A stretch of 30,457 bases of DNA, taken from IMG/VR virus record IMGVR_UViG_3300025853_000420, positions 1 to 30,457 of that record, one strand, 5' to 3'. Positions within the stretch are counted from its first letter, which is position 1, and each line of letters begins with the position of its first letter. The notes beneath the pieces are model-generated. The model saw only the letters and a program-made list of their open reading frames with translations. It was not told where the DNA came from and did no database searches. This document shows, in pieces, positions 929-30,019 of the stretch. Origin of the DNA: a virus. The position numbers and the translations under genes are program-made.

Positions 929-1371
929 TGAAGACTAGCCAAGAAGGCATTTGCCTTATAAAAAAATTTGAAGGCTGTGAGCTGGAGGCTTATCAATGCT
1001 CAGCCAACGTCTGGACGATAGGTTATGGCCACACAAAGAATATCGTCAAGGGTGACACCTGCACCAAAGAAGAGGCAGAGCAGATCCTGACCGACGATCT
1101 TGAGGAGTTTGAGGGATACGTTAACAATCTGGTGGAGGCCGACCTCAACCAGAGCCAGTTCGACGCGCTAGTGGCTTGGACGTACAACCTTGGCCCTACA
1201 AACCTAAAATCCTCAACGCTATTGAAGCGGCTTAACGAAGGCGACATGGACGACGTTCCGCATCAGATTCGTCGTTGGAACAAGGCCGGGGGTCAGGTTC
1301 TGGACGGGTTGATTCGTAGACGCGAGGCGGAGGCCTTGTTGTTCAAGGGGGAAGCTTGGGAAAATGTCTAG
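925..1371 (+). CDS. Endolysin, GH24 lysozyme (T4/P22 type)
   Basis: This 148-residue muramidase cleaves the N-acetylmuramic acid-N-acetylglucosamine bond of peptidoglycan. The GH24 catalytic arrangement Glu-8 residues-Asp/Cys-5 residues-Thr is present exactly: E16, C25 and T31, within F-E-G-C-E-L and W-T-I-G-Y-G-H. Cys replaces Asp at the second position, as in many phage lysozymes. A further family feature is the A-W-T-Y-N-L-G segment followed by R-R-x-E-A near the end. No signal peptide or SAR anchor is visible, so export should depend on the holin encoded just upstream. The start ATG overlaps the holin stop (ATGATG), and the end overlaps the terminase start by 8 bases. Confidence 0.93.
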   Translation: MMKTSQEGICLIKKFEGCELEAYQCSANVWTIGYGHTKNIVKGDTCTKEEAEQILTDDLEEFEGYVNNLVEADLNQSQFDALVAWTYNLGPTNLKSSTLLKRLNEGDMDDVPHQIRRWNKAGGQVLDGLIRRREAEALLFKGEAWENV

Positions 1372-2848
1372 CCTCTCGCTCAAAGACTTTGAGATTCTAA
1401 GCGAGCAAGATCAAAACGAAGCCCTTGCGCTTTTGTCCCGCTACGATCAGATGGACAAGCAAGACAAGTGTCAGGGTGATTTCATCGAATTTGTTAAGCA
1501 TATGTGGCCCGAATGCATCCTCGGTCGCCACCATAAGATTATTGGCGACAAGTTTAACAAGATAGCTCAAGGCAAGCTAAAGCGTCTTATCGTTTGCTTG
1601 CCCCCTCGACACTCTAAATCAGAATTTGCCAGCACATATTTTCCTGCTTGGATGATGGGCCTGCGCGGTGATCTCAAGATAATTCAGACAACTCACACTG
1701 CCGAGCTTGCGGTACGGTTTGGTAGGAAGGTGCGGAACATCATCGACTCTGATGATTACTCTCAGGTTTTTCCTGAGCTACAGTTGCAGGCTGACAATAA
1801 GTCGGCTGGTCGATGGACGACCAATCAGGAGGGTGAATCTTTCTACGCGGGTGTAGGTGGCGCGATCACGGGACGTGGCGCTGACCTATTGATCATTGAC
1901 GATCCGCATTCAGAGCAAGACGCGATGTCGCCTACTGCGATGGAGTCGGCTTACGACTGGTACACCTCTGGGCCACGACAGCGTCTCCAGCCCGGCGGAA
2001 TTATCATCATAGTAATGACCCGCTGGTCAACCAAAGATCTCGTAGGCAAGGTTTTGAAGAAGCAGGGCGATGATCATGCAGATCAGTGGGAGGTTGTGGA
2101 GTTCCCAGCAATCATGCCCGAGTCTGAAACCCCCTTATGGCCGGAGTTTTGGAAAAAAGAAGAGCTTTTGTCGGTCAAGGCCTCGCTGCCGATAAGCAAG
2201 TGGAATGCTCAGTGGATGCAAAACCCCACGGCTGAGGCTGGCTCTATCGTGAAGCGCGAGTGGTGGCGTAAGTGGGAAAACGACTGGGTTCCTTCATACG
2301 AGTACGTTATCCAGAGTTACGATACTGCGTTTAGCAAGAAAGAGACTGCTGACTACTCTGCTATCACTACGTGGGCGATATTCCAGTCGCCAGACGAAGA
2401 TGTGCAAGCTATTATACTTTTGGACGCGAAGAGGGTCAGGTTAGACTTTCCTGAGCTAAAAAGGCTGGCCTACGAGGAATGGAAATACTGGGAGCCAGAC
2501 TGCGTGTTAATTGAAGCCAAGGCCAGCGGCACACCGTTGACCCAAGAGCTTAGAAGAATGGGCATTCCAGTCACAGCCTATACACCATCGCGTGGCCAAG
2601 ATAAGATTGCAAGAATGAACAGTGTTGCCCCGATATTTGAATCGGGGATGGTTTGGGCACCAGACGAAACTTTTGCGGATGAGGTTATCGAAGAGATGGC
2701 AAGCTTTCCGTTTGGGGATAATGACGATTATTGCGATTCGTCAACGATGGCGCTGATGCGGTTCCGTCAGGGCGGGTTTTTAAGCCTCCGCGACGATTAC
2801 CCTGAAGAAGCTGAGTTTTTGAGGCGTGACAGACAGGTATACTACTAA
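1364..2848 (+). CDS. terL: Terminase large subunit (DNA-packaging ATPase and nuclease)
   Basis: At 494 residues this is full length for a large terminase, the motor that cuts concatemeric DNA and pumps it through the portal. The N-terminal ATPase shows a variant Walker A (PPRHSKS, residues 80-86), Walker B with catalytic acidic residues (LLIIDD, 175-180) and a coupling motif M-T-R-W-S (218-222). The C-terminal RNase H-like nuclease has its acidic residues in S-Y-D-T-A-F (D320), L-I-E-A-K-A-S-G (E384) and D-D-Y-C-D-S (D458). This resembles the psiM2_ORF9-type terminase C-terminal domain. There is no recognisable small terminase next to it: the endolysin is immediately upstream and the portal immediately downstream, overlapping by one base. 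Confidence 0.96.
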   Translation: MSSLSLKDFEILSEQDQNEALALLSRYDQMDKQDKCQGDFIEFVKHMWPECILGRHHKIIGDKFNKIAQGKLKRLIVCLPPRHSKSEFASTYFPAWMMGLRGDLKIIQTTHTAELAVRFGRKVRNIIDSDDYSQVFPELQLQADNKSAGRWTTNQEGESFYAGVGGAITGRGADLLIIDDPHSEQDAMSPTAMESAYDWYTSGPRQRLQPGGIIIIVMTRWSTKDLVGKVLKKQGDDHADQWEVVEFPAIMPESETPLWPEFWKKEELLSVKASLPISKWNAQWMQNPTAEAGSIVKREWWRKWENDWVPSYEYVIQSYDTAFSKKETADYSAITTWAIFQSPDEDVQAIILLDAKRVRLDFPELKRLAYEEWKYWEPDCVLIEAKASGTPLTQELRRMGIPVTAYTPSRGQDKIARMNSVAPIFESGMVWAPDETFADEVIEEMASFPFGDNDDYCDSSTMALMRFRQGGFLSLRDDYPEEAEFLRRDRQVYY

Positions 2849-5352
2849 TGGCTATTGAAAAAAGAGGTTTAGGCACCGAAGACAATCCTGACGTTATGCC
2901 AACTGGCAGCGCAATGGAGATCGAGCCAGAGATGACTCGGAACGATGAGATTCGCAATGCAGCAGAGATACTGGTGCGCGAAGAAGAAATTCTTGTTGAT
3001 GACGAGATCGACGAAGAGGAAGAGCAGATAGCTACCGATTTCAACGCAAACTTGGTTGATTTCATTTCAGACAGCGACTTATCCAAGCTCGCCAGCGACG
3101 TAATTGGTTCGATCAAAGCCGATAAAGAAAGCCGATCTGAGTGGGAAAAGACATATACGGATGGCTTGAAGTATCTGGGCATGAAGTTTGATGATTCCCG
3201 CAGCCAACCTTTTCAGGGGTCTTCTGGGGTTATTCACCCGATATTGGCTGAATCTGTCACGCAGTTTCAGGCTCAGGCTTACAAAGAGTTACTGCCAGCC
3301 AAAGGGCCAGTTAAGACCGAGATCGTGGGAGTCCGCAGCCCAGAGGTCGAGATGCAGGCTGGTCGCGTTCAAGACTTCATGAATTACTACATCATGAACA
3401 TCATGCAAGAGTACGATCCAGAGTTGGATATGCTGCTGTTTTACCTTCCACTCGCAGGCAGCGCCTTCAAGAAGGTCTACTTCGACACAGGCATAAGCCG
3501 TGCGATGAGCAAGTTTATTGAACCCCAAGACCTCATTGTGCCCTACGAAGCTACCGATCTTTTCAGTGCGGAGCGCGTGACCCACGTCCTAAACATGAGT
3601 CGGAACGAAATCAAGAAGCAACAGGTCAACGGGTTTTACGCTGACGTGGAGTTAAAAGGCGGTTCTGTCAGTGTATCTAAGAGTGATATTGAAGAGCAGA
3701 TTGATGAGATTGAAGGCATGGAGCCTTCGTACCAAGAGGATCGTGACCACGTCATCTACGAGACCCATACCATCTTAGACATCCCCGGCTTTGAAGATGT
3801 CGGTGAAGATGGCGAACCTACAGGATTAAAACTGCCTTATATCGTCACAATTGACGAGGGATCTCAGAAGGTCTTGTCGATTCGTCGAAACTACGTTGAG
3901 ACAGACCCTCGCAAGGCTAAAATCAACTTTTTCGTGCAGTACAAATTCTTACCGGGCCTCGGCTTTTATGGTCTAGGCCTAAGCCATATGATTGGCGGCA
4001 TATCCAAGTCAGCCACATCAATCCTAAGACAGTTGATCGATGCAGGCACCTTGGCTAATCTTCCGGCAGGCTTTAAGGCTCGCGGGATGCGTATTCGAGA
4101 CGAGGACAATCCACTCCAGCCCGGAGAGTTTAGGGATATTGATACGACAGGCGCGTCTCTACGAGAAAATCTGATACCACTGCCGATCAAAGAGCCATCC
4201 AATGTGCTCATGCAGCTATTAGGGCTGCTTGTAGAGTCAGGTAAGCGGTTTGCAAGCATTGCCGATATGAACGTGGGCGACATGAACCAAGCGATGCCTG
4301 TGGGCACTACGGTGGCTCTACTAGAGCGTGGCACCAAGGTTATGTCGGCAATTCACAAGCGATTGCATTACAGCCAGAAGCTTGAGTTTCAGTTGCTTGC
4401 CAAGGTGTTCGCGGAGTATTTGCCTCCAAATTATCCTTATGTGTCAAAGAATGGCCCACAAGAGATTATGGGGCAGGATTTTGACGGTCGGGTTGACGTA
4501 ATACCCGTATCTGACCCCAACATATTCAGCCAGAGCCAGCGAATCACCATGGCTCAAGAGCTACTTGCCATGGTTCAATCTAACCCTGAGATTCATGGCC
4601 CTACGGGCATATACGAAGCGTATAGACGAATGTACGCGGCCCTTGGGGTTGATGACATTGACAGCCTTATACAGCCCCCACCTCCACCACCACAGCCTAT
4701 GCCAGTGGACGCGGGAATCGAGAATAGTGCGTTCTTGATGGGTCAGCCCGGGCAGGCTTTCGAGCCACAGAATCACCAAGCTCACATTGACGCTCATAGG
4801 TCTCTATTCTTGACCGATGTGGTCAAGCAGAACCCTCCGCTGCAAGGCATGATCATTGGTCATATGATGCAGCACTTACAGTTCATGGCTGGGCAGATGG
4901 CTCAGAGCCAGATCCCACCAGAGCTGAACCAGCAGATACAAGAGATGCAGGCCGCGCAGCAATCTGGTCAGGTTCCGCCCGATCAGTTGCAGCAGCAGCA
5001 GAGCCAGATTCAGATGCAGATAGAGCAACTGTCGTCACCAATCTTGGCTCAGTTGACGCAAGAGCTTCTTGAGTCTATCGGTCAGGGTGATGAGACCGAT
5101 CCTCTGGTTCAAATTAGGCAGCAAGAGTTGATGCTGAAGGAAAAAGCAATCGACTCAGAGAATGAGCAGTTTGAAGCAAAACAACAGCAACGTGCTGAGG
5201 AAAAACTTTTGGAGAATGAAATCGCTAAGCAGCGTATGAATATCCAAAGGGAGGTTGCTGATGATAAGCTAGACGTAGCTATCCGCCGTCTAGATCAACA
5301 GGCAGATTTAAAGCTGCTTGACATGCAAAACAAAAACATGGGAGGCCGATAA
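2848..5352 (+). CDS. Portal protein
   Basis: This 834-residue protein follows the terminase directly, as portals usually do. It should form the dodecameric ring at one capsid vertex through which DNA enters and leaves. A recognisable block around residues 123-160 (GSSGVIHP then an A-E-S-V-T-Q-F-Q-A-x-A-Y-x-E-L-L-P-A-K-G-P run) matches a large portal family of marine and P22-like podoviruses. The first ~70 residues are acidic. A proline run lies near residues 609-617. After it comes a long Gln/Glu-rich, probably helical region to the end (about 650-834), plausibly the barrel or crown that projects into the capsid. The length is typical for this family and the assignment is secure from context and motif. 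Confidence 0.9.
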   Translation: MAIEKRGLGTEDNPDVMPTGSAMEIEPEMTRNDEIRNAAEILVREEEILVDDEIDEEEEQIATDFNANLVDFISDSDLSKLASDVIGSIKADKESRSEWEKTYTDGLKYLGMKFDDSRSQPFQGSSGVIHPILAESVTQFQAQAYKELLPAKGPVKTEIVGVRSPEVEMQAGRVQDFMNYYIMNIMQEYDPELDMLLFYLPLAGSAFKKVYFDTGISRAMSKFIEPQDLIVPYEATDLFSAERVTHVLNMSRNEIKKQQVNGFYADVELKGGSVSVSKSDIEEQIDEIEGMEPSYQEDRDHVIYETHTILDIPGFEDVGEDGEPTGLKLPYIVTIDEGSQKVLSIRRNYVETDPRKAKINFFVQYKFLPGLGFYGLGLSHMIGGISKSATSILRQLIDAGTLANLPAGFKARGMRIRDEDNPLQPGEFRDIDTTGASLRENLIPLPIKEPSNVLMQLLGLLVESGKRFASIADMNVGDMNQAMPVGTTVALLERGTKVMSAIHKRLHYSQKLEFQLLAKVFAEYLPPNYPYVSKNGPQEIMGQDFDGRVDVIPVSDPNIFSQSQRITMAQELLAMVQSNPEIHGPTGIYEAYRRMYAALGVDDIDSLIQPPPPPPQPMPVDAGIENSAFLMGQPGQAFEPQNHQAHIDAHRSLFLTDVVKQNPPLQGMIIGHMMQHLQFMAGQMAQSQIPPELNQQIQEMQAAQQSGQVPPDQLQQQQSQIQMQIEQLSSPILAQLTQELLESIGQGDETDPLVQIRQQELMLKEKAIDSENEQFEAKQQQRAEEKLLENEIAKQRMNIQREVADDKLDVAIRRLDQQADLKLLDMQNKNMGGR

Positions 5353-5693: not shown

Positions 5694-5863
5694 TGAAAGA
5701 TTTAAGCAGAGTTAAAAAGGTTGACTCGCCAAAGAAGAGCATCAAATCAATACCCACCGACCCAGCCTTGGTTCGTCGGACAATGGGCGGAAAGATAAAA
5801 GTCATCAAGGCTCGGGGAGCTGGCGCAGCCACTCGCGGATTTGACTTTCATGAGAAAGTGTAG
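5693..5863 (+). CDS. Small basic protein with RGAGAATRG motif
   Basis: This 56-codon gene starts at the ATG overlapping the previous stop (TGATG) and ends at TAG 5861-5863, which overlaps the next GTG start. The protein is strongly basic (many Lys and Arg in the first 40 residues) and ends with K-A-R-G-A-G-A-A-T-R-G-F-D-F-H-E-K-V. Similar Gly/Ala/Arg 'RGxGAAxRG' C-termini recur in small proteins of marine podoviruses, where they are annotated only as hypothetical. Its place in an unbroken chain of overlapping head genes supports it being real despite its size. A nucleic-acid-binding or capsid-internal role would fit its charge but is not shown. Confidence 0.7.
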   Translation: MKDLSRVKKVDSPKKSIKSIPTDPALVRRTMGGKIKVIKARGAGAATRGFDFHEKV

Positions 5864-6045
5864 TGGATGATATAAATCTAGGCTCTCGCCTAAAAAGAGT
5901 AATGGGCGAGAGGCGGGAGCTTATCCGCGAGGTCTTGATGGATGGAATGTTAAAAGATATAGAACATTATAAATCTTTGCAAGGCGAGCTAACTGTTATA
6001 AACTTGGTGGAGGAAGTAATCAGAGAATTCTACAAGGAAATCTAA
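5863..6045 (+). CDS. Small helical protein, function unknown (GTG start)
   Basis: This 60-residue protein is predicted here to start at the GTG overlapping the upstream TAG by one base; the nearby ATG at 5867 is out of frame and stops at once. It is mostly helical and charged (R-L-K-R-V-M-G-E-R-R-E-L-I-R-E-V-L-M-D-G), with no membrane segment or known motif. The stop is directly followed by the start of the GroES-like gene. Both the tight packing between neighbours and the sensible amino-acid composition support it, but I can name no family. Confidence 0.62.
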   Translation: MDDINLGSRLKRVMGERRELIREVLMDGMLKDIEHYKSLQGELTVINLVEEVIREFYKEI

Positions 6046-6465
6046 ATGACAACCTCTATAACAGAATCCGCTTACGTCTCAAGCGACGAACGTGTTCTTG
6101 ATCCAACCCTGCTTGAAAAATCCGCCATCGAGAGAATGCCTAGCCCTTCTGGGTGGCGCATGCTGGTTCTGCCCTACCAAGGCAAAGCCAAAAGCGAAGG
6201 CGGCATCCACCTCCTGAAAGAAACGGTAGACCGAGAGGCTTTAGCCACGGTGGTCGCTTATGTTGTAAAGATGGGGCCACTCTGCTACGGAGACACTGAA
6301 AAGTTTGGAGACAAGCCTTGGTGCGAAGAAAAGCAGTGGGTGCTAATCGGTCGTTATGCTGGAGCTAGGTTCAAGCTTGAGGACGGCGGCGAAGTCAGAA
6401 TAATCAATGACGACGAGGTCATTGGCACAATTATAGACCCAGACGACATAGTGAGCTTCACATGA
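6046..6465 (+). CDS. GroES-like co-chaperonin (phage Cpn10)
   Basis: The 139-residue protein has a GroES/Cpn10 core from about residue 33 to 131. A strand with G-W-R-M-L-V-L-P is followed by a flexible segment K-A-K-S-E-G-G-I-H-L-L (47-57), equivalent to the GroES mobile loop with its G-G-I-V-L contact for GroEL. Next come a T-V-V-A-Y-V-V-K-M-G-P strand and I-G-R-Y-A-G-A-R-F-K (101-110), matching the F-G-K-Y-A-G region, and an end N-D-D-E-V-I-G-T-I. It differs from bacterial GroES by a ~30-residue N-terminal extension and an insertion around 80-97. Such proteins cap host GroEL to fold phage proteins, as T4 gp31 does for its capsid protein. Its position between portal and scaffold fits a capsid-folding role. 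A good AAGGA ribosome-binding site precedes the start. Confidence 0.83.
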   Translation: MTTSITESAYVSSDERVLDPTLLEKSAIERMPSPSGWRMLVLPYQGKAKSEGGIHLLKETVDREALATVVAYVVKMGPLCYGDTEKFGDKPWCEEKQWVLIGRYAGARFKLEDGGEVRIINDDEVIGTIIDPDDIVSFT

Positions 6466-7418
6466 TAGAAAATCAAAACGCAGAGCAGATGGAAGAGGAA
6501 CAAGTTTCTATTGAGGTCACCGAAGACCCGGTAGAGGGATCTGGTGGCGGTGACGGCGATGAGCTTGAAAACTATACCAAGTCGGTTTCTAAAAGAATTA
6601 ACAAGCTCAACCAGAGACATCGGGAAGCTGAGCGAAGGGCGCAGCAGCTTGAGCAGATTGCCTTGCAGAAAGAGGCTGAGCTTCAGCAGTATCGGCAGTA
6701 TTCGGTTCAACAGTCTAATACTGTTTTAGCCAAGGAAGAGGAGGCTATAGCTTCCAAAGAGTCTCAGATCGATGACGTTTACCGCAAGGCGGTTGAAAGT
6801 GGAGACGCGGATCTCATCACCAAGGCCTCTAAGCTCCAGAATGATATTGCTATTCAGAAGGAAAAACTTCGTGTAGCAAAGTCTCGGCAAAGGGCTGCTC
6901 AGGAAGAGTCTTACCAATCCCAAGGTAACGAACAGATAGTTAATTACCAACAGCAACAGCGGGTTCAGCAAGAGGTTACGCCAACAGAAGATGCGTTGGA
7001 ATGGCACGAAAGGAACCCTTGGTACGCGAATCAGGACAGCGAAGATGACATGAAGGCGACCCAGTACGCCTACTATGTTCACTACAATCTGGCCAACGAA
7101 GGCTTCGACGTTGGTTCTGACGAGTATTACGAAGAATTGGACAGCCGTGTCGGTACGGTTTATCCTCACACTAAGAGCGCCAGTAATGGCAACTCGAAGA
7201 CCGTTCAAAGTGGAAGCAGACCCGCTGTGCAAAGAGTCGCTTCAGCTACCCAAGGTGGTGGTCGGTCAAAAACACAAGGCAAAAAGAATGGCGTGAGCTT
7301 TTCTAAGTCTGAGCTGGAGCGACTCAGGAGCCTCAAGCCGCATAATATGTCTGAAGAGGCATGGTTGCAGCGAGTGGCAAAAGAGAAGCAAAAAATTGCA
7401 TCAAGAGAGGCAAGCTAA
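6462..7418 (+). CDS. Scaffolding-like coiled-coil head protein
   Basis: This 318-residue protein is rich in Gln, Glu, Arg and Lys. It has an acidic N-terminus (residues 1-35), a long heptad-like helix from about 38 to 175 (containing R-H-R-E-A-E-R-R-A-Q-Q-L-E-Q), a less charged aromatic segment (about 182-230), and a basic Ser/Gly/Lys-rich C-terminus. A soluble, helical, low-complexity protein just before the capsid genes is the usual profile and position of a phage scaffolding protein, which guides procapsid assembly and is then removed. The basic C-terminus would be the coat-binding end, as in P22 scaffold. No protease motif is apparent. The function is inferred from profile and order, not from a specific motif. 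Confidence 0.75.
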   Translation: MIENQNAEQMEEEQVSIEVTEDPVEGSGGGDGDELENYTKSVSKRINKLNQRHREAERRAQQLEQIALQKEAELQQYRQYSVQQSNTVLAKEEEAIASKESQIDDVYRKAVESGDADLITKASKLQNDIAIQKEKLRVAKSRQRAAQEESYQSQGNEQIVNYQQQQRVQQEVTPTEDALEWHERNPWYANQDSEDDMKATQYAYYVHYNLANEGFDVGSDEYYEELDSRVGTVYPHTKSASNGNSKTVQSGSRPAVQRVASATQGGGRSKTQGKKNGVSFSKSELERLRSLKPHNMSEEAWLQRVAKEKQKIASREAS

Positions 7419-7419
7419 A

Positions 7420-7893
7420 ATGGCAGAAATAAAAGCAAACGCACGTTCATCCCGTGATTCGCAGTCACACGATAATCAGACTCGCAGGAAACCATGGCGA
7501 CCAGTACGGTCACTTGAAACTCCCCCTGCACCGGCAGGTTATACCTACAGGTGGATAAGGGAGTCCATGTTGGGACAAGAAGATCGAGCTAATGTCTCGC
7601 GTCGAATCAGAGAGGGCTGGGAACTCGTAAGAGGAACCGAATTGCCGCCAGATTGGCGTTCTTTACCAACGATGGATAGTGGCCGACATGAAGGCGTGGT
7701 CTACAACGAAGGGTTGCTATTAGCGAAGATCCCTAATGAAACGGTTGAAGAGCGCAGAACCTATTATCGGGCGAAGAGCAAACAAGCTACGGATGCATTG
7801 GACAACTCAATGTTCAACGAAACCCGTGGTGATAGCCGTTACGTTAAATATGATCCTCAGCGCGATAGCAACGTCACATTTGGACGTAAATAG
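7420..7893 (+). CDS. Conserved phage protein between scaffold and capsid genes
   Basis: The preferred start is ATG 7420 (157 residues): a GAGAGG Shine-Dalgarno element lies just upstream. The longer frame begins with a TTG at 7396 inside the scaffold gene. Landmarks include P-W-R-P-V-R near residue 25, P-A-G-Y-x-Y-R-W-I-R-E near 39, a D-R-A-N-V-S-R-R-I-R-E-G-W-E-L-V-R stretch, and D-S-G-R-H-E-G-V-V followed by L-L-L-A-K-I-P-N-E-T. I recognise this as a conserved uncharacterised family found next to capsid genes in marine podoviruses. A capsid-associated function is likely from position, but the biochemical role is unknown. The end (V-T-F-G-R-K) is also typical of that family. Confidence 0.75.
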   Translation: MAEIKANARSSRDSQSHDNQTRRKPWRPVRSLETPPAPAGYTYRWIRESMLGQEDRANVSRRIREGWELVRGTELPPDWRSLPTMDSGRHEGVVYNEGLLLAKIPNETVEERRTYYRAKSKQATDALDNSMFNETRGDSRYVKYDPQRDSNVTFGRK

Positions 7894-7904
7894 AGGTATT
7901 CAAA

Positions 7905-8489
7905 ATGGCGAATAAAGACGCTGCATTTGGAATGAAGCCGGTCAGAATGATCGGTGGCGCACCTTACACTGGCGGTCAGAGTCGATATCGTATTGCTGCG
8001 AATTATGGAACTTCCATTTTTCAAGGCGATATGGTTGCTCAGGTCACTGGAGGTACGGTGGAAGTACACGCTGACGGAGGCACTGTGCCTGTAGTTGGTG
8101 TTTTTAACGGTTGCCAGTACACAGACCCCACCAGTGGTGAGCAAGTTTACAGCAACTACTACCCTGCAAGCACTAACGCCGCAGACATCATCGCTTTTAT
8201 CATTGATGATCCCGACGTGGTTTACGAAGTGCAAGCTGATGACACGTTTCCAATTACCGACCTGTTTGGCAATTTTGATATCGTGTACACCACTGCGGGT
8301 AGCACTTTGACTGGTATTTCTGGCGCTGAGCTTGACGTAACCACTGGTGCTACCAACACGAACCTGCCGATCAAAGCGATCGACATTTCGGAAGATCCGA
8401 ACAACTCGGACACGGGCGCTGCAAACACTAACGTGTTAGTAGTAATTCAAAACTCAATCTTCGGCGTTAAAGGCGCTGGCTTAGCATAA
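7905..8489 (+). CDS. Capsid-associated structural (decoration-like) protein
   Basis: This 194-residue protein is rich in Gly, Thr, Val, Ala and Asp and poor in Lys, a beta-strand composition typical of virion surface proteins. It lies immediately before the major capsid gene with a good AGAGG ribosome-binding site and a 12-base gap to the stop of the previous gene. N-terminal F-G-M-K-P-V-R and a central G-V-F-N-G-C-Q-Y-T-D segment are features I associate with a widespread small structural family adjacent to phage capsid genes. A capsid decoration or stabilising role is the best guess; a minor head protein is the alternative. No catalytic motif is present. Confidence 0.7.
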   Translation: MANKDAAFGMKPVRMIGGAPYTGGQSRYRIAANYGTSIFQGDMVAQVTGGTVEVHADGGTVPVVGVFNGCQYTDPTSGEQVYSNYYPASTNAADIIAFIIDDPDVVYEVQADDTFPITDLFGNFDIVYTTAGSTLTGISGAELDVTTGATNTNLPIKAIDISEDPNNSDTGAANTNVLVVIQNSIFGVKGAGLA

Positions 8490-8500
8490 GGAGCTAAATA

Positions 8501-9418
8501 ATGGCTATTTCAAGAGCACAGCTCGCTAAAGAACTGGAGCCGGGGTTAAACTCCTTATTCGGCATGAGCTACGACAGCTACGACCGCCAGTATGAAGAAA
8601 TCTTTGCTATTGAAGACTCACAGCGAGCCTTCGAGGAAGAGGTTTTGATCACTGGTTTCGGCGGAGCGCCAACTAAAACCGAAGGTCAGGGCGTACAGTT
8701 TGACAACGCTTCTGAGTCTTACACTGCTCGCTACACGCATGAGACCGTGGCTTTGGCATTTTCTTTGACCGATGAAGCAGTAGAAGATAATTTGTATGAC
8801 TCGCTCGGCAAGCGATACGTGAAGGCTTTGGCCCGATCTATGGCTAACACCAAAGAAGTCAAAGGTGCAGATGTACTGAACAATGCGTTCGATACTAACT
8901 ACACTGGCGGCGACGGTGTAACATTGATTAACACGGCACACCCTCTAGCGGGTGGCGGCACTGCTGCAAACCGTGCTACCTCAATGGCTGACTTGAACGA
9001 AACGTCTTTGGAAGATGCGTTGATTGATATCAGCACATTTACTGATGACAAGGGTCTTACGATCTCTGTTCAAGCATCAAAGCTTGTCGTACCACCTCAG
9101 TTGGTTTTTGTTGCTGACCGTATCCTGAACTCAACTTTGCGTTCTGGTACTGCCGACAATGACATCAACGCTGTACGCAACACGGGTGTATTGCCCGGTG
9201 GCTACACGGTCAATCATTACCTGACTGACCCTGATGCCTTCTTCTTGCTGACTAGCGTCACCGACGCTGGCGAAGGCTTGAAGATGTTCCAACGTACTGC
9301 GATGGAAACCACAATGGAGCCAGACTTCACGACTGGCAACATCCGGTATAAAGCGCGAGAGCGTTACTCTTACGGATGGAGTGATTGGCGTGGAATCTAC
9401 GGCAGTCAAGGCGCTTAA
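8501..9418 (+). CDS. Major capsid protein (HK97 fold, Mu gpT-like)
   Basis: The 305-residue protein has the length, composition and position of a tailed-phage coat protein. It has a helical N-terminus (MAISRAQLAKELEPG), a long middle with an E-x-A-V-E-D-N-L-Y-D-S-L-G-K-R-Y-V-K-A-L-A-R-S-M helix, an N-T-A-H-P-L-A-G-G-G motif, and L-V-V-P-P-Q-L-V-F-V-A-D-R-I-L. These match the Mu major head subunit gpT-like branch of the HK97 fold. The ribosome-binding site (AAGGAG, 7 bases before ATG) is the strongest in the head module, as expected for the most abundant protein. Transcription is closed off just downstream by a strong terminator. There is no sign of an N-terminal delta-domain or protease partner; assembly probably uses the separate scaffold. 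Confidence 0.88.
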   Translation: MAISRAQLAKELEPGLNSLFGMSYDSYDRQYEEIFAIEDSQRAFEEEVLITGFGGAPTKTEGQGVQFDNASESYTARYTHETVALAFSLTDEAVEDNLYDSLGKRYVKALARSMANTKEVKGADVLNNAFDTNYTGGDGVTLINTAHPLAGGGTAANRATSMADLNETSLEDALIDISTFTDDKGLTISVQASKLVVPPQLVFVADRILNSTLRSGTADNDINAVRNTGVLPGGYTVNHYLTDPDAFFLLTSVTDAGEGLKMFQRTAMETTMEPDFTTGNIRYKARERYSYGWSDWRGIYGSQGA

Positions 9419-12306: not shown

Positions 12307-13919
12307 TGGCTATCTCTGACGATTTACAAGCAGCCCAAGACGAATACGGTAGCTCAGCATCCCCCTATGCAAGTCTGAGTGAGTATTTGATGCAGCGCCC
12401 TGCTTACGACAGGGGCGCTAGGGCTGCGCCAGCGGCTCCGACGATGAGAACGCTTGACGCTATTACTCCTGACACTGACCAGTTGCTGGCTGAGCAGTAT
12501 GAAAAGATTATGGCTGAGCAGAGAGAGGCTCAAGAGGCATCTGCGGCGGCTCGTCAGACGGAAATTGACAGCCTAAGAGACCTGTTGAGAGAAGAGCTTG
12601 CCACGTCAGAGCAGGCGGCTCTGGGCGAGAGGTCTGAGCTTTCCAAGTCTCTTGAGGCGCAAATAGAAGATATGCGTCGTGGCGTTGACGCAGAAACCAT
12701 GGATCTTCGCCAAGCTGGACTCGACGAGAGGGCTGCGCTTGCTCGTCAGATTGAAGAAGGCGACAAGTTGGTTAGAGAGGCGCAGGTTCAGGCCATTGGC
12801 GACTTGGAAGACCGGCAAGGTTCTTTGGTTGGCGATCTTAAAGAAAGAATAGGCTCTTTATCTTCTGATCTTTCTAGCATCAATAGCGTGATTGATCAGA
12901 ATTATTCTGAATTGCTTAACATTCAAGAAACCTCGTCAGGTGCTACTCAAGAGCAAATATCCGGCATAAACCAAGAGCTGGAATCATTAAGCGGTACTCA
13001 GTCGGAAATTGACACGCTAAACCAGCAGCTTGAAACCTTGTATGAAGATGTAGAAGCTGGAAATGTTGATCAATCTGAATTGTTGCGTGGAGAGGTTTCC
13101 GACCTAATTGCTGGTTTAGAAGGCAAGATAAGCGGCATTCAAGACAACCTTGGTGCCCTGCCAATCGACCAGATTCAGGCAGAGCTTGCCACAGTCAACG
13201 ATCAGACTGCTGCTTTTCAACAAGCAATTGATATTGCTGGTACAGAAAGAACTGACCTCGCCGCAAGAATAGAGGCGTTGCAGGCCGCTGGATTGACCCA
13301 AGATGACCTGTCTGGCTTGTCTGAGTCGATTGCAAGCCAAAGGCAGACGGACATCACTTCAGCTCTAGACCCTGTACAACAGCAGATTGAGGCGCTTCGC
13401 GGCCAGATACCCGGAGAGGTTGACACCGAGGCATTACGCAAACAAATTACCGAAGACATCATGGCTCAAATGGCTAATCAAGCGCCTCCCGCTGGAGGGG
13501 GCACTGGCGACACCGACACAGATGTAGATGTTGGCGACGTTGTTGTTGAACCCAGCCCCGGGTTTAGCGGAACACCTTATGAAAACTTTATGGGCGGTTT
13601 CATTCCCGGCGCAGGGCAATCCTATGACGCAGGCGTAAACTACGGGCCGTCAGCGTCCGAAGCGGCTGGCTTTAACCCTGCCGGCGGAGGCTCAATGGGC
13701 AGAGGCAATCAAAGCATTGTAGATAATTCTGGTTATCTTGACTTTTATAATCAACAAACTTTAAATCCAGTTTCGCCCGTAAAAACAGGCAACATGCCCG
13801 GCGGCGGAGTTGGTTCAGGGTATGTGAAGACTGGCGCTCCAATTGCCTACAATCAAGGGCCGTTTCAGGCTCAGAAATTTAACACCAACCTTTTTAATAA
13901 AGGAAGTTTTGGAATGTAA
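12306..13919 (+). CDS. Long coiled-coil protein with Gly-rich C-terminus
   Basis: This 537-residue protein has a variable N-terminus (1-55), then about 340 residues of almost continuous charged helix (about 55-395) with repeated E-x-x-I-x-x-L patterns expected of a long coiled coil. After a Gly/Asp-rich linker (about 395-415) comes a Gly/Pro/Asn/Tyr-rich tail to residue 537 ending N-L-F-N-K-G-S-F-G-M. It has no enzymatic or membrane motif. A fibrous virion protein or an internal core protein would both fit. It is longer than typical scaffolds and lies downstream of the capsid gene, which argues against a second scaffold. The start overlaps the previous stop by one base. Confidence 0.68.
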   Translation: MAISDDLQAAQDEYGSSASPYASLSEYLMQRPAYDRGARAAPAAPTMRTLDAITPDTDQLLAEQYEKIMAEQREAQEASAAARQTEIDSLRDLLREELATSEQAALGERSELSKSLEAQIEDMRRGVDAETMDLRQAGLDERAALARQIEEGDKLVREAQVQAIGDLEDRQGSLVGDLKERIGSLSSDLSSINSVIDQNYSELLNIQETSSGATQEQISGINQELESLSGTQSEIDTLNQQLETLYEDVEAGNVDQSELLRGEVSDLIAGLEGKISGIQDNLGALPIDQIQAELATVNDQTAAFQQAIDIAGTERTDLAARIEALQAAGLTQDDLSGLSESIASQRQTDITSALDPVQQQIEALRGQIPGEVDTEALRKQITEDIMAQMANQAPPAGGGTGDTDTDVDVGDVVVEPSPGFSGTPYENFMGGFIPGAGQSYDAGVNYGPSASEAAGFNPAGGGSMGRGNQSIVDNSGYLDFYNQQTLNPVSPVKTGNMPGGGVGSGYVKTGAPIAYNQGPFQAQKFNTNLFNKGSFGM

Positions 13920-13921
13920 CT

Positions 13922-14284
13922 ATGGCTTCTTCTGCCCCTAAAAATGTAGCCAATCCTAGTCTTTACGCCAAAGCTAAGGCTAAGGCCAAGGCTAAGTTTG
14001 ATGTTTACCCGAGCGCATATGCAAACGGCTGGATGGTTCAGGAGTACAAGCGGATGGGTGGAAAATACAAAGGCGCTACTGGCGGCGACGTGAGCTTAGA
14101 TCCGAAGAAAAGCGATCTTGATAATGACGGCAAGCTAAGCCGTTACGAGCGTAAGCGCGGCACCGCTATCGCCAAGAGTATGGCAAAGAAAATGAACATG
14201 GGCGGAACGGTGATGGTTCAGGGTCGTGGCTGTGGCGCTATCATGCCAAAAAAGCAAAAGAAGACGCGAGTGCCCCGTGGCTAG
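13922..14284 (+). CDS. Small basic protein with a canonical EF-hand loop
   Basis: This 120-residue protein starts with an Ala/Lys repeat region (A-K-A-K-A-K-A-K-A-K, about 16-25), then a segment N-G-W-M-V-Q-E-Y-K-R-M-G-G-K-Y-K known from small marine-phage proteins. Residues 65-76 read D-L-D-N-D-G-K-L-S-R-Y-E, a textbook EF-hand calcium loop: Asp at 1, 3 and 5, Gly at 6, Leu at 8, Ser at 9, Glu at 12. The C-terminus is M-N-M-G-G followed by a G-R-G-C-G-A-I-M-P-K-K block rich in Lys and Arg. It is the first of three tandem small basic genes and overlaps the next by 8 bases. Its role is unknown; a calcium-dependent virion component is possible. Confidence 0.7.
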   Translation: MASSAPKNVANPSLYAKAKAKAKAKFDVYPSAYANGWMVQEYKRMGGKYKGATGGDVSLDPKKSDLDNDGKLSRYERKRGTAIAKSMAKKMNMGGTVMVQGRGCGAIMPKKQKKTRVPRG

Positions 14285-17297: not shown

Positions 17298-18020
17298 TTG
17301 GAACCAATAAAAGAGTTAGAAGGTAAAAAGGTAGCGATTATAGGCTTGGGCGCAAGCCAGATCGATTACGTTATAGGAAAAGAAAACAGCGTCGAGTGGG
17401 ACGAGGTCTGGGTCATTAACTCTGCCCTATCCGTCTTTGAGTGCGATAGGGTCTTTATGCTTGACCCGGCAAGCCGTTTTCTTGACACCGAAGATGCGGG
17501 AAACCAAACGGAGGTTATGAGAAAACTACTGCCGAAGTTTGAAAAGCCGATTTATACGTGCGAGCTAGATGACCGAGTACCGGCGTTGGTTGAGTACCCT
17601 CTAGAAGAGGTCATCAAGGATCAGCGTTGCGCTTACATGAACACAACGGTTGCTTACTCGCTGGCTTTTGCGGCGTATAACAAGGTCGGTTCTGTTGACC
17701 TGTTTGGGATGGATTTTAGCTATAAGAATAACTTGCACTTTGCTGAAGCTGGCAGGGCATGTTTAGAGTTCTGGATATGCAAGATGATTGCCATTGGCAT
17801 AAAGGTTGGGGTTAGCCCAAGGTCGTCGTTGCTAGACCAGAACGTGCCCCTTCAAGAGAGGCTTTATGGATACCACCGACTGGCTAATCCAAAGGTGGCA
17901 ATGCCAAACCCAGAGGGTGAGTGGGTTGTTTGTGATCGGTCTGAGTTGGCTCAGATGGTCAAGAAGCACAATCTAGAGACGGTGGAGTTGCCGTCATCAC
18001 CAGAACCGTACAAGGGGTAG
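17298..18020 (+). CDS. DUF115/MAF-like Rossmann-fold protein in the tail module
   Basis: The start is TTG 17298, right after the previous stop, with AGGGGTGA about eight bases upstream; there is no ATG near the N-terminus. The 240-residue protein opens with a beta strand and glycine loop K-V-A-I-I-G-L-G-A-S (11-20). It then has D-E-V-W-V-I-N-S-A (35-43), A-Y-M-N-T-T-V-A-Y-S-L-A-F-A (112-125), V-D-L-F-G-M-D-F-S-Y (133-142) and A-G-R-A-C-L-E-F-W (151-159). This pattern resembles DUF115/MptE- and motility-associated-factor-type proteins, related to sialyltransferase-like nucleotide-binding folds. A glycosyl- or pyrophosphate-transfer activity is possible but unproven. The Y-G-Y element near 189-192 is common in its phage relatives. 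Confidence 0.7.
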   Translation: MEPIKELEGKKVAIIGLGASQIDYVIGKENSVEWDEVWVINSALSVFECDRVFMLDPASRFLDTEDAGNQTEVMRKLLPKFEKPIYTCELDDRVPALVEYPLEEVIKDQRCAYMNTTVAYSLAFAAYNKVGSVDLFGMDFSYKNNLHFAEAGRACLEFWICKMIAIGIKVGVSPRSSLLDQNVPLQERLYGYHRLANPKVAMPNPEGEWVVCDRSELAQMVKKHNLETVELPSSPEPYKG

Positions 18021-29250: not shown

Positions 29251-29269
29251 GACGGATCTCTAATTGATA

Positions 29270-29305
29270 TTGAGCAATTGTATAGGATTGTATATCATTG
29301 CACAA
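29270..29305. promoter_or_regulatory. Interlocked divergent promoters with an ATTGTATA direct repeat
   Basis: Rightward: TTGAGC, 17 bases, TATCAT (29270-29298) for the oxygenase gene. Leftward: TTGTGC at 29305-29300, 17 bases, TACAAT at 29282-29277 for the RHH gene pair. The -10 element of each lies inside the spacer of the other, so both polymerases cannot bind at once. The octamer ATTGTATA occurs twice (29277-29284 and 29287-29294), centred 10 bases apart on one face of the helix, which could be an operator for the small repressor encoded next door. Confidence 0.5.
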
Positions 29306-30019
29306 ATGTATGAAATGAAAAATTATATGTTGTCAATGCAGTCGCATTGGATGGTCAACCAGCCGCTCTACAAGGCGGTTCAGGCGACCGTTCCGATGAT
29401 TGCTGAATTCAGGGCAAGGGATGGCAGGGAGCGCCTACAGAAGACTCCTGTGTCTCGGCTATGCAAGAAGGTCTTTCCCGAGGTGTACAAGGTGCCGTTG
29501 TTCCGAAGGCAGTTCTGCAAGATGTTGGTCGAAGAAATCAAGCAAATGGAGCAGGAGATACCCTTTGAGCCAAATGAAGCTGAGGACGAGCTGAGGCAGA
29601 TCCCTGAGATTGTGCTGCAAGAGCATGTGCCTGAGCTGTACCGCACGATGTGGTTTGTCGTGCAGAACGTGCTGAACCCGATTTTTAATACGCTGTACCA
29701 CAGGGATTGCCGAGACGTTTCTTCGATCCAGATTGCTAACTACAACCCCAAGGATAAGCAGAAAGGCGCGTGGCATCACGACGAGAGCGCCGACATCAGC
29801 GTGGTGGTTCCCCTCAACACCGATGAGTACAAGGGTGGTGGCACAGAGTTTCATCGCCACGGCATCCTGAATCCGCTGCCCAGTGGACACGCATTGATAT
29901 TTCCTTCCTTCACCAACCTGCACCGTGGCCTAGCGGTAGAGAGCGGCGACCGATACTTATTGGTTTTCTGGCTGCACGATAAGAAGCGGCTTATCGAGAG
30001 ATACAACAGTTTGGAATGA
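29306..30019 (+). CDS. 2-oxoglutarate/Fe(II)-dependent oxygenase (hydroxylase-like)
   Basis: The start is uncertain. The frame runs from a TTG at 29264, but five in-frame ATGs follow (29306, 29315, 29327, 29336, 29351) and none has a strong ribosome-binding site; 29306 (237 residues) is used here. The catalytic core is of the prolyl-4-hydroxylase-like family. It has W-H-H-D-E-S, which supplies the H-x-D iron ligands, V-V-V-P-L-N, then N-L-H-R-G as the distal His ligand and, ten residues on, the Arg of G-D-R-Y-L-L-V-F-W that binds 2-oxoglutarate. All required residues are present. The substrate could be a nucleic acid base, a protein side chain or a small molecule. The N-terminal ~150 residues are unrecognised and helical. 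Confidence 0.83.
   Translation: MYEMKNYMLSMQSHWMVNQPLYKAVQATVPMIAEFRARDGRERLQKTPVSRLCKKVFPEVYKVPLFRRQFCKMLVEEIKQMEQEIPFEPNEAEDELRQIPEIVLQEHVPELYRTMWFVVQNVLNPIFNTLYHRDCRDVSSIQIANYNPKDKQKGAWHHDESADISVVVPLNTDEYKGGGTEFHRHGILNPLPSGHALIFPSFTNLHRGLAVESGDRYLLVFWLHDKKRLIERYNSLE

Follow-up and report, generated by a model that had tools for sequence, protein, structure and literature searches.

The textbook example of a phage replacement for GroES is gp31 of bacteriophage T4, which is usually explained by the size of the capsid protein; the mobile loop of the gp31 type is the longer one (22 versus 16 residues). T4 gp31 folds gp23 (PMC3012670), is devoid of roof loops and serves a capsid protein of 56 kDa (PMC6318259). 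Closer to the locus described here are phages in which the same gene is annotated in the same place, namely the pelagiphages HTVC023P and HTVC027P, phage DSL-LC04, cyanophage MinM2, roseophages and Caulobacter phages. HTVC023P-type phages have 13 core genes, one of which is co-chaperonin GroES (PMC9599517), CRP-901-type genomes have been drawn with it (PMC10149686), and GroES in another marine phage has been discussed (PMC4294664). For phages that carry GroES only, host GroEL as the partner is the usual arrangement (PMC7185714).

Relatives of the window phage

We analysed a stretch of DNA of 30,457 nucleotides from a marine phage, hereafter the window, whose groES gene is a new sequence of this already known kind. 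The GroES proteins of the HTVC023P-type pelagiphages (HTVC023P gp36; HTVC027P) are homologous to that of the window and about 50% identical to it, and in HTVC023P the genes run from terminase to capsid in the same order, again with a small open reading frame (ORF) before GroES; the window phage differs from this type in its distinct sequence and in a GC content of 50%. The GroES of DSL-LC04, a freshwater phage recorded from a gammaproteobacterium, is 48% identical and lies in the same order (portal, small ORF, GroES, scaffold, capsid), although its N-terminus is longer than that of the window protein. A close variant of this gene order is found in MinM2, Caulobacter phage RW and the Manatee Spring phages. 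The large terminase subunit (TerL) of the window is 58-63% identical to those of the HTVC023P group and DSL-LC04, which places the window phage in or beside the HTVC023P group.

We also considered assigning a host from the genome contigs that hold relatives (L084-L089). These 6 contigs bear 5 unrelated labels (Pelagibacter, Gammaproteobacteria, Dehalococcoidia, Sphingobacteriales and Maricaulis), which suggests that phage contigs were binned with unrelated genomes, and therefore no host is given for the window phage.

A GroES-like gene in the head module

The earlier note had placed a GroES-like co-chaperonin between the portal gene and the scaffold and capsid genes, and this position holds. 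The features of the head module, all on the plus strand, are as follows.

1364-2848, plus strand: terminase large subunit (phrog_38, E 8e-108)
2848-5352, plus strand: portal protein, 94 kDa (phrog_1216, E 6e-39)
5863-6045, plus strand: 60-aa helical-hairpin protein, a conserved companion whose stop codon abuts the groES ATG
6046-6465, plus strand: groES-like co-chaperonin gene, 139 aa, 15.5 kDa (phrog_3188, Cpn10 relatives, AF2 model)
6462-7418, plus strand: putative scaffold protein, 318 aa, 36.1 kDa, acidic and coiled-coil-like, its start overlapping the groES stop
7396-7893, plus strand: 165-aa head-module protein (phrog_36003, E 8e-32), syntenic in relatives; its start may be downstream of 7396
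7905-8489, plus strand: 194-aa head-module protein (phrog_37556, E 2e-33)
8501-9418, plus strand: major capsid protein of the gpT / Phage_capsid_4 type, 305 aa, 33.2 kDa (PF25209, E 8e-16; phrog_371, E 6e-27)

With a 113-aa ORF between the portal gene and the 60-aa ORF, the window thus follows the HTVC023P-type order of terminase, portal, small ORF, GroES, scaffold, two genes and gpT-like capsid. The ORF at 6462-7418 matches phrog_28737, a family of unknown function (E 7e-23), and is regarded as a putative scaffold gene from its position.

The groES ORF begins with an ATG that has AAGGA shortly upstream, and its stop overlaps the next ATG by ATGA. Relative to close relatives, in those comparisons where dS could be estimated, its dN/dS is 0.04-0.07, and such low values point to a real gene under strong purifying selection. 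On the single window sequence, Pfam Cpn10 remained below threshold (16.8 bits, cut-off 21.1), and phrog_3188, annotated as co-chaperonin GroES, matched with an E of 4.3e-12. When 59 diverse relatives were examined, all 59 matched Cpn10 at E<=0.01 (best E 6.6e-17) and all matched phrog_3188 too, while the family profile found solved GroES/Cpn10 structures at E values from 1e-23 to 8e-9. By this homology, which is far beyond chance, the product is assigned to the GroES/Cpn10 co-chaperonins, as had been proposed from the letters of the window. The top match of a first phmmer search, an Aureispira grappling-hook protein, was dismissed because the hit arose from repeats and contained no single stretch of significance.

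Anatomy, mobile loop and predicted structure

Segment lengths were obtained by aligning the window protein with E. coli GroES and T4 gp31 and counting residues by hand. Two segments of the groES product are referred to below.

Residues about 30-131: Cpn10 core
Residues 44-60: mobile loop, with the motif G52-G53-I54-H55-L56

The window protein shares with E. coli GroES and Pfam Cpn10 the fold, the mobile loop, the roof-region Tyr and the segment lengths, whereas identity to E. coli GroES is about 20%, the protein is longer by 29 N-terminal and 8 C-terminal residues, and it is encoded without groEL. About 29 of the added residues extend the N-terminus and 8 the C-terminus; of the others, 4 directly follow the mobile-loop triplet and 1 lies close to the end. 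The claim that the protein is longer than bacterial GroES therefore stands for its N-terminal extension; a large internal insertion, also claimed, was ruled out by the count, which gives some 5 internal residues in all, and the C-terminal extension had gone unmentioned.

In the alignment, KSEGGIHL falls exactly over KSAGGIVL of E. coli, so that GG-I-H-L corresponds one-to-one to GG-I-V-L and the motif read earlier as a mobile-loop signature does occupy the mobile-loop position. The middle residue of the triplet is His in the window protein, as is common among close relatives. Nearly all members of the window, HTVC023P, DSL-LC04 and CRP-902 groups retain Gly-Gly-(I/V/L)-x-L, the last position of the motif is mostly Lys in the MinM2 group, and Gly-Gly followed by a hydrophobic residue is present in essentially all marine relatives. 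This conservation bears on the idea that the protein has become a GroES-fold component of the head, for example a plug or decoration ring, with loss of GroEL binding. The gene does sit inside the head operon, and the relatives carry extensions at both termini to which no role has been assigned; however, nearly all members retain the loop motif, which is known to mediate GroEL binding, and loops that have degenerated are seen chiefly in the distant Alcaligenes-phage-type clade, so that we regard such a change of role as highly improbable. In that clade (L402-L451, e.g. L418:3835-4173) the mobile loops are longer as well as more degenerate, and they are possibly fitted to other GroELs or heading toward a gp31-like loop.

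The AlphaFold (AF2) monomer model shows a confident barrel, with pLDDT of about 90-95 in the core blocks, a less certain loop and helix 58-67, and an N-terminal extension of low confidence. The 4 extra residues after the triplet are modelled, with modest confidence, inside helix 58-67. When the model was searched with Foldseek against the PDB, GroES/Cpn10 structures came out on top (E from 4e-6 for 4pj1 to 8e-4; 1aon, E 1e-4), with TM scores by target of about 0.6-0.77, and the gp31 structure 1g31 was much weaker (E 0.039). The GroES beta-barrel is thus present in the prediction, nearer to GroES than to gp31. Among viral models the best structural match was to 'Co-chaperonin GroES [uncultured virus]' entries (BFVD A0A221S*; 53% identity). 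We take these entries to come from the virioplankton chaperonin survey of Marine et al. 2017 (ISME J; cited in PMC7185714), in which viral chaperonins were reportedly prevalent.

Comparison with T4 gp31

As in the window, a phage Cpn10 has been proposed in T4 to serve the capsid protein via host GroEL. T4 gene 31, however, lies outside the head-gene cluster, next to rIII, 31.1 and cd, whereas the window groES is inside the head module. The suggestion that the window phage widens the GroEL chamber amounts to a gp31-like cage, enlarged for an oversized phage protein. The protein is indeed longer than GroES, and the residues added after the mobile loop, modelled in helix 58-67, might have a small effect on the cage. 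Nevertheless, (i) the roof segment, measured between G77, the conserved Gly that follows the loop, and the conserved Tyr of the roof region, counts 27 residues, the same as in E. coli GroES, while gp31 has lost the roof loops, (ii) the capsid protein and the putative scaffold, at 33.2 and 36.1 kDa, are well under the 56 kDa of gp23, (iii) the 94-kDa portal protein greatly exceeds what either cage could hold, and (iv) no sequence similarity to gp31 was detectable with the HMM of the window family. Chamber widening is hence unsupported, and we give an enlarged cage a very slight chance. Because the capsid and scaffold proteins are small and the roof segment is of normal length, the rationale developed for gp31 does not transfer to the window GroES.

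Linkage of GroES to the capsid block

A homologue of the window capsid protein is carried by all 15 phage records that the window GroES matches. A search with the capsid protein led to 21 records, and the 12 that represent distinct lineages were searched whole; Cpn10 scored above the Pfam cut-off in every one (12/12), and Cpn60 was found in none (0/12). By comparison, an E. coli GroES query matches 117 of 50,697 phage records. In counts that include related genomes and are not independent events, GroES was found within 5 kb upstream in all 31 viral contigs that were fetched by a divergent capsid query alone and had sufficient upstream sequence, and a scaffold relative directly follows GroES in 383 of 391 GroES loci. 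Since the linkage spans a wide divergence, with identities down to 29% for the capsid protein and to about 25% for GroES, long-term selection for the GroES-capsid pairing is the simplest reading. In a limited literature search we found no statement of a near-obligate link between GroES and this capsid family. What is new here, namely the occurrence of Cpn10 and the lack of Cpn60 in the 12 representative records together with the recovery of GroES by the capsid query alone, supports a dedicated lid on host GroEL for head proteins.

In roseophage CRP-902 the small ORF, GroES, scaffold, two genes and capsid form one block, and the terminase and portal genes are many genes away. Such behaviour has to be set against the view of the phage protein as a general booster of, or substitute for, host GroES, that is, as the product of an auxiliary gene that sustains overall folding in infection and has no dedicated client. 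Its GroES core and mobile loop are intact, as that view would have it, and T4 gp31 can replace GroES generally (PMC6318259). Yet the gene keeps its fixed slot before the scaffold gene, moves with the capsid block in CRP-902, and is a core gene (PMC9599517), whereas an auxiliary gene is typically found at varying positions and in only some genomes; we therefore consider a general booster unlikely.

Co-divergence was uninformative as to the client. Pairwise GroES distances track those of the capsid protein and of the portal protein equally (rho 0.79 each; partial 0.38 versus 0.35), and therefore this test does not favour the capsid protein over the portal protein.

In two of the 12 representative records the Cpn10 gene has another location. 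Methanomicrobiales virus vir526 (BK063670.1, 1027-1383), recorded from a methanogen, has a groS upstream of the terminase, apparently of a different Cpn10 lineage. In MW202601.1 the Cpn10 gene is located at 13798-14013 and is not part of the head module, so that it may have been relocated or acquired independently.

The companion 60-aa ORF

HMM relatives of the 60-aa ORF lie immediately upstream of groES in 360 of 418 loci, and 30 of 38 members of the family match phrog_32603, of unknown function. The product is modelled as a two-helix hairpin (AF2 pLDDT 90.7), and its dN/dS against the closest relatives is about 0.08. Its Pfam matches were single and inconsistent, and were set aside as chance. 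Where the portal gene is elsewhere, this ORF stays with the GroES/capsid block. No comment on the small upstream protein was found in a limited literature search. It may be, though we hold this to be rather doubtful, that in this widespread capsid lineage something other than size makes the small, 33-kDa capsid protein strictly dependent on a dedicated Cpn10, and that the hairpin protein is a third partner, for example an adaptor in client delivery or assembly. If true, the 60-aa protein, Cpn10 and the scaffold and capsid proteins would constitute a phage folding cassette.

Proposed function

The reading that we prefer is that the phage Cpn10 probably acts as a lid on host GroEL, made from the head operon and joining or replacing host GroES so that a head protein can fold. 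The partner would have to be the host GroEL ring because the relatives carry no phage Cpn60. Seven copies of the phage GroES would assemble into a lid of the usual kind on the GroEL of the infected host; with late expression the phage protein would join or replace host GroES, and an abundant head protein of the phage lineage would then fold inside the closed cage. Among the candidate clients the major capsid protein ranks first, followed by the scaffold or the 194-aa protein, and the head operon would supply GroES in step with its client. Whereas the homology, the predicted fold, the conserved loop, the lack of a phage Cpn60 in relatives and the linkage are results of the present analysis, the heptamer, the binding to GroEL, the client and the insufficiency of host GroES are what we infer.

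The dedicated cap for host GroEL put forward in the earlier note is thus well supported by the GroES fold, the conserved loop, the absence of Cpn60 from related phages and the linkage to the capsid block, and the alternative of a widened chamber finds no support. A counterpoint to a dedicated lid is that a capsid protein of 33 kDa should fit an ordinary cage. A private lid might plausibly serve to match the supply of GroES to heavy capsid production, or it might be called for by a feature of the client other than its size.

In a whole family of phages with small capsid proteins, which is common in the sea and includes pelagiphages, roseophages, cyanophages and Caulobacter phages, a phage-encoded GroES is retained in tight linkage with the capsid block. 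Capsid size is unlikely to be the reason for a private GroES in these phages, and therefore they could show what besides size causes a capsid protein to depend on a private chaperonin lid. The question is testable in members that are in culture, such as HTVC023P and Caulobacter phage RW.

Other genes of the window

Two genes outside the head module were observed in passing. In the structural region, a 240-aa protein (17298-18020, plus strand) has a start that looks Rossmann-like by eye only, and it has no match in Pfam or PHROG. Near the window end, the gene at 29264-30019 (plus strand) encodes a 2OG-Fe(II) oxygenase-like protein (PF13640, E 1.5e-7).
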